Assembly (NCBI GenBank): GCA_016206755.1
Contig: JACQQZ010000076.1
Span: forward strand, 1-10,910
Direction of reading: 5' to 3'
DNA from: Candidatus Omnitrophota bacterium
Lineage (GTDB): Bacteria; Omnitrophota; Gorgyraeia; 1-14-0-20-64-10; JACQQZ01
Length of the DNA stretch: 10,910 nt
A model generated the notes under the pieces. It saw only the letters and a list, made by a program, of their open reading frames with translations, searched no databases and was not told the origin of the DNA. Positions 6,905 to 10,141 of this stretch are shown here, piece after piece. Positions within the stretch are counted from its first letter, which is position 1. Each line of letters opens with the position of its first letter. A program made the translations under genes and the position numbers.

Positions 6905-9900
6905 ATGCGCCGAAACTTCCCGATTCAAATTCGCCTTCTTGCTCTAGCAACCTGCTTTTCTTTGGGCATCCCGTCCTATTCTGTCAAAACTCCGGCCACG
7001 CTTCGCCAACAGCACGCCGGCATGGAAGAAATCGCCCGCACGCTCCATCATGCAAACCCGGCTGATTCCGGCCTGGAAGAGCTGGCTGGTGTGGAAATCG
7101 CCGAAACAACACCCGGTCAGATTGATGCACTTCTCAAATTTCGAGAGGACGCATTCAAAGAAAAAGTTTCGTGGGATGGAGATTTCGATGAGCCATTGTT
7201 CCGCAAACGACTGGATGCGCTGATTCGCCATGAGATTCCTGGGGCGTTGGTGGTTGCCCGAGCTGGCGGAGAGATTGTCGGCTATGCGGCCTCCTATCCA
7301 AAACCGCCTGCCAATTCTACAGGAGAAATCTCCGAGCTGGCCGTCGATCTCCGCTACGAGCGCAAAGGCCTTGGATCAAAGTTGTTTGCTCAGGCGCTGG
7401 AGGGATTGGTTCGTTTTGCGGGCATCGCGACGGTTCAAGTGCAAGACTTCTCAACGGCCGGGGCTGTTGGTCAGATGGCCGAGAAATCTGGTTTTGCGCG
7501 GGAGGATGGCTCAGGGTATTCCTATCGCCTGCAATTACCTCCCATTGCATTGGCGCCGGCTTCAGGATTGCCGATTTATCTGGAGCGCGGCCGTACGCAT
7601 CGGATTTTTGGGCCGGATAATGAACCATGGGGCGATCCGCCTGATCTGCGCACGGCGGGTGATATGAGGGAAGTCCTCGTTGATCCCGATGTGGTGGGTT
7701 ACAACATGAATGAAATAGTTGAGTATCGGATGTATCGCGATCGAGCGCTTGCGGAGCATCGTTCATCTGCTTCTGAGCACAAGCTCCGCTATGATGTCAC
7801 TGTGATCGCGCCTTCCGATGACGCGCACCGCTTCGGCGCCGAGTTGGTAAAAACGTACGGCCATTACCATCCCCCGCGAGCTCCGGAGGTTCTGCCGGAA
7901 GTTTACGAAGTGCTTTACGGCGAGGCCTGGTTCCTTCTTCAAAAACCAAGCGCAGCGGATTCTAACGTGATTGGAGACATTGTTTTGATCAAAGCGCGGG
8001 CGGGGGAGAAGGCAATCATGCTGCCTGGCTATGGCCATGTGACGATCAACCCCTCGGCGACTGAACCGATTGTCATGGCCAATTGGGTGAGTTCTGCATT
8101 TCAATCGGATTATACGCAATACCGGCAGCATCACGGCGCGGCCGTTTATGTATCCTTGGTCCCTGACTCGCCGGGGCAGGTGCAGATTCTCCGGAATCCG
8201 GCTTATTCGACATTGCCCGATGCCGTCAGGATTGCCCGTCCGATTCCCGCGCTAATGGAATTCGGTCTTGAGGATAACCGGCCGATGTATCAATTGATTT
8301 TTACCGCCCCCACCAAACTTGGATTTTTAAACGCCCCAGAAAATTTTTCGCCGGAATTTGGTCGGGCGTTGATTTGGATTGGACCAGTCCGAATTGGCGA
8401 TACGATGCCCGCCGGTTTGGAAGAATGGGCGCAGCGCAGCGGGGATTATTATCAAGGGGCAAACGTTGCCGTCATTGGAGGGACCGGTTTTGTCGGCGGT
8501 CATTATCTGCGTCAATTGCATGATCGATACGGATCCAATATTGCATCGGTTCGTGCATTGACTCGCATCCCCGCTCGGTTGAATGCTGCACAGTTTTCAG
8601 ATTCTCCCGGAGCAGGTAAGCTTGCGCTTGAGCAAGGAGATCATCTGCTAGCCCAAGACATTCAGCGCACAATTGGAGGGGCAAAACTTGTTGTCGATAC
8701 GGCAGGGCTGGCTTGGCAGCATTTGCCGGGTGGCGTTCCGGCCACTCTGACCGATGAGCTTTTGCAGAACGCGATGAGCGCCGGTTTGATCGGCCTTTTG
8801 CTGGCCGATGATCAGCGATTGGTTTGGACATCCAGCAATGCCGGCGATTATATGTTTGCACGCTTGACCGCGCCTGAGCGGAACCAACTCATGCAAGAAA
8901 TCAATGAACGCGCCGCCCGATACGTCGATTGGCTGGGACAACAGCCCGGTCTTGCCATCGCCGACGAAACGTTTCGGCAATTCATCGAATCGGATTTGGC
9001 CGAACCCGACCACATCCCAGCTCAATTTGTGCCGCAAGAAGGCAAGCCGGCGGTTTCTTTTGCGCACGAGTACAGCTACCCCTATTCCAAACTGCTCGGT
9101 CAGCAGATCTTGGAATTGATTGCCCGACGGGACAATAGGGACATTCGAGTCCTCAAAATCTCTGATGTTTATGGACCAGGTCAGGGCTTGGGTCAGGAAT
9201 ACTGGGATCCTTCCTACAAAGGCGGTCGATTGGCTGCACGGCGTTTGCAGCGCTTTATTGCTGTCGCTGAAGCGATCCGTACAGGGCAATATCAACCGTG
9301 GAATCGTCCAAACCCGCAGGATGGATACATCCTTCAAAATGGGATGCTTCATCAGACGGTATTCAATGATTATGCGGCGCCGACCCACGTCAGAGATGTC
9401 GTGGAGATGATTCATCGGGTCGCGGCGTTGGATGTGGAGCCGGGTCCGGAACGAAAAGTGGTTTTTGAAGTGGCCGCACCTTGGATTCCGAACAATGCCA
9501 TGGCCGATGCTGTGATCAATGCCGTGAATGACGTTGATGATCCAGACAGGACAATTCATGTTGCGGTTCTTCCGGCGAAGCAGCCGATTCTTCGTCGAGA
9601 ACCGGCCAATGCCAGCGGTGATTTGGCTTTGTTGGGCATGGCCGGGACGCTGACACCGCTGGATCAAGGAATCCGAGAATGGCTGGCCGGGTGGCGGTTG
9701 GACGCCGCGATTCAGCAGGCACGGAATCGAAAAGCGGTTTACCTGTTTGGGCCATCCCTACCGTCCGATGTGCAAGCGATGGCAGCAGCGCTCCAGCGGC
9801 GCGGTATGTCTCAAGTCGTGGTTCTTGCGGATGATCCGGATACAATGCAGTCGCAATTAGATGGCAAAGTGCTTGAGTGGACCGATTCCCGGATATTTTC

Positions 9901-10141
9901 GGTTTTGCCGGAACTTTATGTCTACGCTTCAGAAGACGATCAGGTTGCAGATCAGGCAATGGAGGATCTGAGTCAAACAGAGTTTACGGTTCATCACGGC
10001 GGTGTTATTGATGACGCCGAACGATTTTTCCGGTTGGTATTCCAAGCCACCGGCGTTCCAGAAAGTTATCTTTCGGAGGAACATTGGCGGCAAATGTTCC
10101 AGGCATTGCAATCGGCCGCCGGCCTCGAACAAGCAGCATAA
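6905..10141 (+). CDS. Multidomain fusion: signal-like N-terminus, GNAT, cupin glucose-6-phosphate isomerase, NAD(P)-dependent epimerase
   Basis: A 1078-residue protein joining three enzyme families. Residues 1-26 (Arg-Arg, then a hydrophobic stretch with LLALATCFSLGI) look like a signal peptide. About 63-211 is a GNAT N-acetyltransferase with the RKGLG acetyl-CoA loop near 153-157. About 222-459 is a cupin resembling archaeal-type glucose-6-phosphate isomerase: His320 and His322 in GHYH, Glu332 in EVYEVLYG and His378 in GYGH match the metal ligands. About 517-890 is an extended short-chain dehydrogenase/epimerase with GGTGFVGG at 525-532, Ser643/644 and the YxxxK pair Tyr725/Lys729. Residues about 944-1078 are unrecognised. 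The frame extends upstream into cydB, but ATG 6905 fits the hydrophobic start and the promoter. By inference it acts on a sugar or sugar nucleotide; order and substrate are unknown. A signal peptide on acetyl-CoA and NAD(P) enzymes is odd: either the N-terminus is only an anchor or the domains are non-catalytic. Domain calls are by motif, not by search. Confidence 0.85.
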   Translation: MRRNFPIQIRLLALATCFSLGIPSYSVKTPATLRQQHAGMEEIARTLHHANPADSGLEELAGVEIAETTPGQIDALLKFREDAFKEKVSWDGDFDEPLFRKRLDALIRHEIPGALVVARAGGEIVGYAASYPKPPANSTGEISELAVDLRYERKGLGSKLFAQALEGLVRFAGIATVQVQDFSTAGAVGQMAEKSGFAREDGSGYSYRLQLPPIALAPASGLPIYLERGRTHRIFGPDNEPWGDPPDLRTAGDMREVLVDPDVVGYNMNEIVEYRMYRDRALAEHRSSASEHKLRYDVTVIAPSDDAHRFGAELVKTYGHYHPPRAPEVLPEVYEVLYGEAWFLLQKPSAADSNVIGDIVLIKARAGEKAIMLPGYGHVTINPSATEPIVMANWVSSAFQSDYTQYRQHHGAAVYVSLVPDSPGQVQILRNPAYSTLPDAVRIARPIPALMEFGLEDNRPMYQLIFTAPTKLGFLNAPENFSPEFGRALIWIGPVRIGDTMPAGLEEWAQRSGDYYQGANVAVIGGTGFVGGHYLRQLHDRYGSNIASVRALTRIPARLNAAQFSDSPGAGKLALEQGDHLLAQDIQRTIGGAKLVVDTAGLAWQHLPGGVPATLTDELLQNAMSAGLIGLLLADDQRLVWTSSNAGDYMFARLTAPERNQLMQEINERAARYVDWLGQQPGLAIADETFRQFIESDLAEPDHIPAQFVPQEGKPAVSFAHEYSYPYSKLLGQQILELIARRDNRDIRVLKISDVYGPGQGLGQEYWDPSYKGGRLAARRLQRFIAVAEAIRTGQYQPWNRPNPQDGYILQNGMLHQTVFNDYAAPTHVRDVVEMIHRVAALDVEPGPERKVVFEVAAPWIPNNAMADAVINAVNDVDDPDRTIHVAVLPAKQPILRREPANASGDLALLGMAGTLTPLDQGIREWLAGWRLDAAIQQARNRKAVYLFGPSLPSDVQAMAAALQRRGMSQVVVLADDPDTMQSQLDGKVLEWTDSRIFSVLPELYVYASEDDQVADQAMEDLSQTEFTVHHGGVIDDAERFFRLVFQATGVPESYLSEEHWRQMFQALQSAAGLEQAA

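Follow-up and report, generated by a model that had tools for sequence, protein, structure and literature searches.

The window analysed here is a stretch of 10,910 nucleotides from an uncultured Candidatus Omnitrophota bacterium (contig JACQQZ010000076.1), and its subject is a 1078-residue protein encoded on the forward strand at positions 6905..10141. This protein is one of dozens of signal-peptide-led mosaics in one order of uncultured bacteria. The mosaics share a five-residue tag, [AST]G[LM]EE, which sits behind the leader and between domains and looks like a common cutting or docking site. The tag lies outside the recognised domains, is nearly confined to leader-bearing mosaics and, among the genomes searched, to the order; its form differs between genomes, and a C-terminal domain recurs among the proteins that bear it. 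The original prediction had proposed the fusion of three enzyme families and an unknown domain as a candidate undescribed system. That candidacy stands for the mosaic format and its tag, which make up the system, and falls for this particular trio of enzymes. We lean towards reading the window protein as a Sec-exported polyprotein that is cut at the tag by a trans-acting reader, a reading to which we give slightly less than an even chance.

The protein is encoded by a single open frame that runs from an ATG at 6905 to a stop ending at 10141, through 1078 codons with no interruption. Its leader and tags had been overlooked. Residues 1–26 (6905..6982) form a signal-peptide-like leader, MRRNFPIQIR-LLALATCFSLGIP-SYS, whose cleavage point was placed by eye. 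The presumed mature chain then starts with an LR-containing element, VKTPATLRQQH (6983..7015), assigned by the class pattern A↓[LMFVI][RK], where the arrow marks the junction. Motif scanning finds a first tag, AGMEE, at residues 38–42 (7016..7030), a second, SGLEE, at residues 55–59 (7067..7081), immediately N-terminal of the acetyltransferase domain, and a third, AGLEE, at residues 503–507 (8411..8425), which separates the isomerase from the epimerase. A variant, AGLEQ, occupies residues 1072–1076 (10118..10132), two residues from the C-terminus.

Across 45 mosaic frames the tag occurs 158 times, against 0.9 times per shuffle (maximum 4 in 100 shuffles) and one occurrence of the reversed motif. 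Because contigs were mostly chosen by tag hits, this enrichment is partly selection. Less biased tests are provided by neighbouring frames, by whole-genome counts against a reversed pattern and by the predictions of a C-terminal domain profile. For example, 178 neighbouring frames (64,742 residues, similar in total length to the mosaics) contain one strict tag. Genome counts relied on a nucleotide pattern of the tag, which also admits I and F. In the window genome this pattern occurs 55 times and its reverse 8 times, and the 20 tag-bearing mosaic frames read there together hold 46 such sites. Ten of the eleven genomes of the order have 25–213 occurrences each against 8–26 of the reversed pattern; the eleventh, G005, has 32 against 19. 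Among 384 genomes of the phylum, six of them from the order, each of the other 378 has at most 36. Several outgroup genomes show a raised ratio, including G309 (16 against 2) and three in which the hits are scattered singly (G240, 31 against 13; G377, 26 against 5; G301, 22 against 3). Within stretches L040–L079, 151 of 156 nucleotide hits lie in frame within listed frames.

Information in the tag is confined to its five residues, with flanking columns below 0.4 bits. At 180 G[LMIVQTF]EE sites, position 1 is A in 97, S in 42 and T in 25, and position 3 is L in 157 and M in 11; substitutions beyond these, including V at position 1 and Q at position 3, are rare. Of 73 tags, one lies within a Pfam match where 13.7 were expected; the envelopes used were the best stretches found in 19 matching proteins out of 33 scanned. 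By this placement a consistent motif stands at the unit boundaries, as in a polyprotein. A second tag follows the first within 60 residues, behind the leader, in 16 of 30 proteins, and later tags have a median spacing of 300 residues. The surroundings are linker-like in composition, with A, P, K and Q raised and C, Y and M lowered. Such composition, together with an epimerase conserved at 49–53% identity, would suit a stable multienzyme in which the chain stays whole and the tag is merely a favoured flexible linker. However, five fixed residues with near-empty flanks exceed what flexibility needs, the leader and C-terminal alanine are left unexplained, and no conserved domain order was found in the searches described below. 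We consider a stable multienzyme quite improbable.

Nearly all mosaics open with a signal-peptide-like leader and most end in alanine. A hydrophobic stretch precedes the first tag in all 43 mosaics with a usable N-terminus, a statistic that, like the next one, is leaned slightly by the admission of single-tag frames only when they had a hydrophobic run. Under simple rules, with no trained predictor, a hydrophobic core followed by an AxA↓[LMFVI][RK] junction is found in 28 of these 43 and in 3 of 249 tag-free neighbours; the class junction often reads A↓LR. At the other end, the final residue is alanine in 38 of 57 mosaics (36 of 53 once four doubtful frames are excluded) against 24 of 249 neighbours, and the last two residues are AA in 16 of 57 against 4 of 249. 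By eye, several mosaics (L041, L046, L127, P0002 and P0003) also carry a Tat-like RRxFLK segment after the first tag or the leader, which gives the impression that complete exported proteins were joined on downstream of the leader.

The C-terminal region of the window protein, residues 934–1078 (9704..10138, ending SAAGLEQAA), contains an order-specific domain that we call C-terminal domain A (CTD-A). Seeded from the window alone, a search for this domain gave one weak relative. At E 0.01 an all-against-all comparison of 45 mosaic C-termini gave 48 real pairs against 3 decoy pairs (five decoys were used for each sequence), and CTD-A proved common to 14 of the 45 (single linkage, E 0.02). The resulting profile matches in 8 of the 11 order genomes and in none of 48 other genomes of the class. 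Judged by these profile comparisons, the unknown domain is real, with relatives in 8 of 11 order genomes. Fourteen of the 24 profile matches are not among the model rows, and all 14 lie within 22 residues of the stop. Their frames all bear a loose tag, [ASTVG]G[LMQ]E[EDQ]; 11 bear a strict one, and in 12 a tag lies outside the matched domain. Some model rows contain the tag in their first columns. A leader is seen by eye in 10 of the 11 such frames with a readable start. No relative of CTD-A was found by sequence in the PDB (best E 0.12), and its structure model (predicted local distance difference test score, pLDDT, 45.8) is too poor for a fold search. A second C-terminal family, CTD-B, links four proteins (L040, L048, L055 and L070) that end in FV or FA.

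The combination of domains in the window protein did not recur among the proteins and genomes searched. A protein search in which the best 8000 word-sharing candidates were scored returned five matches including the protein itself; the four relatives each share the epimerase and none has the same domain order. Nor did a search of 59 genomes with the whole protein locate a second protein with that order; it matched the epimerase part in G003, the isomerase in four genomes of the same class and the acetyltransferase part in G038. The predicted order of acetyltransferase, isomerase and epimerase is thus nonstandard as far as these searches reach. The epimerase part recurs in five other mosaics, one of them in G003, at 49–53% identity to that of the window and with different partners each time, and a tag opens the epimerase module in five of the six (AGQEE in one). 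A single stand-alone epimerase relative was found, at 27% identity, among the best 8000 candidates of limited length. A separate search for the isomerase gave 205 relatives, of which the best 120 were listed; it could detect proteins of ∼153–486 residues and is therefore silent on fused forms, which the 59-genome search covers. The isomerase relatives in the four same-class genomes occupy frames of their own, of 261–282 residues.

These results bear on two of the proposals for the protein. Substrate channelling by a three-enzyme sugar complex is rejected, as these searches found no conserved order, and the suggestion of one dedicated enzyme that acetylates, isomerises and epimerises a single sugar is likewise unsupported, with epimerase partners that differ each time. 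That no other protein of this order turned up would also fit a chance fusion or an assembly error confined to this contig. Such an accident is very unlikely, because the epimerase recurs at 49–53% identity in five other mosaics and, of the 11 order genomes, the 10 that were read (G008 was only counted) all contain proteins of this format. The same-class genome G038, which belongs to another order, contains a leader-bearing mosaic (L092) that includes the acetyltransferase part behind a different leader, AYPPEHN..TLATPS, and ends in AA. Beside it lies a second long frame that also ends in AA and in which, by eye, one part resembles glycogen synthase. Mosaic proteins as such may be more widespread than the tag.

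The tag varies between genomes and is consistent within them, a pattern that a single reader acting on every site of a genome would be expected to produce. In G004, position 3 is leucine in 80 of 82 tags, while in G002 it is L in 15, Q in 14, A in 6 and M in 2. Position 5 is relaxed in G005, where the commonest residues include E (15), A (13), S (10), G (7), V (5) and Q (3), and by reading, EE is retained behind 10 of 12 readable leaders. Frames of G005 were picked for two or more [AST]GLE; selection of contigs by EE hits disfavours a relaxed fifth residue, which was nevertheless seen in this genome. The variants point to a trans-acting reader, though DNA copying could also yield them, and both may operate. 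A reader need not cut. The tag could be a docking motif, a short linear motif to which a partner binds without cutting, thereby anchoring or assembling the exported chain. The five-residue information, the placement outside domains and the genome variants serve docking equally; a second tag within 60 residues of the first in 16 of 30 proteins suits avidity, and in some mosaics the first tag appears, by eye, to be followed by a stretch that is hydrophobic or Tat-like. However, no candidate partner has emerged so far, and the position of tags close to the ends of modules and of chains is more suggestive of cutting boundaries. We hold docking to be a possible but unlikely account.

Codon use raises a further alternative, in which the 15 bp of the tag are a recombination scar, an in-frame microhomology for module shuffling with no reader at the protein level. 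TCC, CTG and GCC are over-used in tags relative to context-matched codons, a codon memory in keeping with such a scar. Glutamine in tags is encoded by CAG, one step from CTG, in 15 of 16 cases (516 of 847 overall), and the epimerase module turns up in different contexts. Nonetheless, the 158 tags comprise 92 distinct 15-mers, the accepted residues are almost solely A, S or T and L or M (with Q in G002) rather than all one-base neighbours, and only 1 strict tag occurs in the 178 neighbouring frames. Spectra also differ between sister genomes, although copying could give that too. A scar without a reader seems rather improbable. We rank cutting first, docking second and the scar third; cutting is favoured because fixed residues stand at boundaries, a tag lies just behind the leader and a variant lies near the very end.

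In the cutting model, the leader, with its signal-peptidase-like junction, would carry the chain out of the cytoplasm. The tag would be read in trans, most likely by a peptidase cutting at or near the Gly-Leu bond, and cutting would free the acetyltransferase–isomerase and epimerase–CTD-A portions as separate proteins. A sorting or processing signal may lie in the C-terminal domain and the final alanine. We infer export, cutting, the bond cut and the site of enzyme action. A broader form of the model is doubtful: a polyprotein system spanning the order, in which the richest genomes would each encode dozens of exported chains, many with several cytoplasm-type enzymes. A dedicated peptidase would cut them at the five-residue tag, the enzymes would work outside the cell or within a host or prey cell, and tag and peptidase would have drifted together between genera (GLEE, GQEE, GLEx). 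Bacteria may in this way make virus-style polyproteins.

Several observations weigh against export and cutting. No specific fit to a cognate protease was found among the three families searched: S8 subtilases are rejected, with no match at E 1e-10 in 5 of the 11 order genomes (G000, G003, G005, G008 and G009); C39 is missing from 7 of 11; and S41 (CtpA), present in every one of the 11, is unspecific, being found as well in 26 of 28 other genomes of the class. No tag separates the acetyltransferase from the isomerase in the window protein, and P0003 lacks a tag ahead of its epimerase. Leaders were judged by simple rules, and a hydrophobic segment is common in neighbours too (91 of 249 tag-free frames, within the first 100 residues). 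The raw counts of G005 (32) and G009 (25) fall inside the outgroup range, so that for G009 it is the ratio (25 against 8) that counts. Serine codon use in tags (TCC at 0.71 against 0.30, p 7e-7) also fits recombinational spread. Cytoplasm-type contents would be without cofactors outside the cell. Finally, the mosaic isomerase is the sole recognisable glucose-6-phosphate isomerase, of two families tested, in the window genome (80% complete), which could mean that it acts inside the cell. Among the order genomes, PF00342 occurs in none of 11, and the only PF06560 match is that of the window mosaic. Separately, a giant mosaic in G004 is followed ∼20 bases downstream by a leader-bearing subtilase with a fervidolysin-like propeptide (L062:1-1140, minus strand).

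The enzyme domains are recognisable members of their families. Frame check, Pfam and the profile relatives of CTD-A bear out the original prediction of three enzyme families and an unknown domain in one uninterrupted frame, and the signature residues of all three enzymes are kept. The GNAT acetyltransferase domain (about residues 60–210; 7082..7534) matches PF00583 at residues 94–175 (E 1.7e-10; 41.6 bits against a cut-off of 20.7), and has the RxxGxG acetyl-CoA loop, as RKGLGSK at 153. The cupin glucose-6-phosphate isomerase (about residues 220–485; 7562..8359) matches PF06560 at residues 249–417 (E 2.9e-30, above cut-off). Its H320, H322, E332 and H378 sit in nearly invariant alignment columns with the HxH, E, H pattern, and we take them to be metal ligands, as in the Pyrococcus furiosus enzyme. 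The extended short-chain dehydrogenase/reductase or epimerase module (residues 508–934; 8426..9706) matches PF01370 (E 4.7e-7; 29.9 bits against 20.9) and keeps GxxGxxG (GGTGFVG at 525), the serine (WTSSN at 641) and YxxxK (YPYSK at 725); the key G, S, Y and K do not vary across six relatives. The whole-protein structure model is poor (mean pLDDT 58.4; 537 of 1078 residues below 50), and only the isomerase part, about residues 210–500, is good (pLDDT mostly above 90). The closest PDB match of the model is the P. furiosus phosphoglucose isomerase 1x82 (Foldseek E 1.7e-13; template modelling score 0.78 on the target). The window domain thus shares fold and metal-site residues with the archaeal-type cupin enzymes, whereas the known forms stand alone (190 residues in 1x82; 261–282 in frames of the class genomes).

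Other mosaics carry a wide range of cargoes. Pfam matches include PfkB kinases, an aminotransferase, GlpX, transaldolase, phosphomannomutase, ARMT1-like, DUF4922, NAGPA, mannitol dehydrogenase, GNAT, APH-like, HATPase, sigma-70 region 2, HTH and methyltransferase domains. Weaker matches, several of them below curated cut-offs, include M23, HEAT and abhydrolase, and 14 of the 33 mosaic proteins scanned had no Pfam match. Contents of the mosaics in the window genome bear no relation to one another; examples are a sigma-70 region, a HATPase, a mannitol dehydrogenase and an APH-like kinase. By eye and against family motifs, active-site residues look altered in the phosphomannomutase and one NAGPA of G004 and in the mannitol dehydrogenase of L051, and kept in the PfkB, aminotransferase, GlpX and APH-like parts. 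Mosaic frames reach 3947 residues in the stretches read and 6168 in the genome search. In the C39 search, contig C9 of G002 also shows an open frame of 45,037 codons that contains two C39-like matches; its product would, to our knowledge, rank among the largest proteins known.

The mosaic format has likenesses to several known systems. Viral polyproteins also place several enzymes on one chain with a short motif between them as a possible cutting site; the window chain differs in having no peptidase domain by Pfam, a secretion leader and a bacterial genome in which ∼20 such chains were read. Multifunctional autoprocessing repeats-in-toxin (MARTX)-type multi-effector toxins are exported chains with several enzyme domains in variable order, whereas no cysteine peptidase domain was matched by Pfam in the window chain. 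The type IX secretion C-terminal domain, PEP-CTERM/exosortase and LPXTG/sortase systems likewise join unrelated cargoes to a common leader and a conserved tail or short motif. Unlike these, the mosaic tag repeats inside the chain, and the tail is a soluble-looking domain or only a terminal alanine. Giant open reading frames in Omnitrophota and other Planctomycetes–Verrucomicrobia–Chlamydiae clades have been described, in the parts of two accounts drawn on here, as adhesion, sugar-degradation or membrane-spanning giants (PMC10066038, PMC12057145). They resemble the mosaics as very large, multidomain and probably exported proteins in small genomes, as does the 45,037-codon frame, whereas those parts mention no inter-domain tag or C-terminal alanine (PMC10066038, PMC12057145). 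A search of the literature, with preprints and most subscription papers outside its reach, found, among the entries ranked highest, no description of the tag or of bacterial polyproteins of this kind.

Production of metabolic enzymes as one exported, tagged chain, if borne out, would be a new route by which bacteria build and deliver proteins. Should the tag prove to be no more than a recombination scar, it would still reveal a DNA-level habit of joining modules in bacteria. The tag offers a handle on the giant proteins of uncultured bacteria with small genomes; the functions of such proteins have been described as difficult to assess (PMC10066038). The gene neighbours of the window protein are ordinary: uvrB, a birA-like gene, a class-I amidotransferase, a methyltransferase, cydA, cydB and a type III pantothenate kinase.

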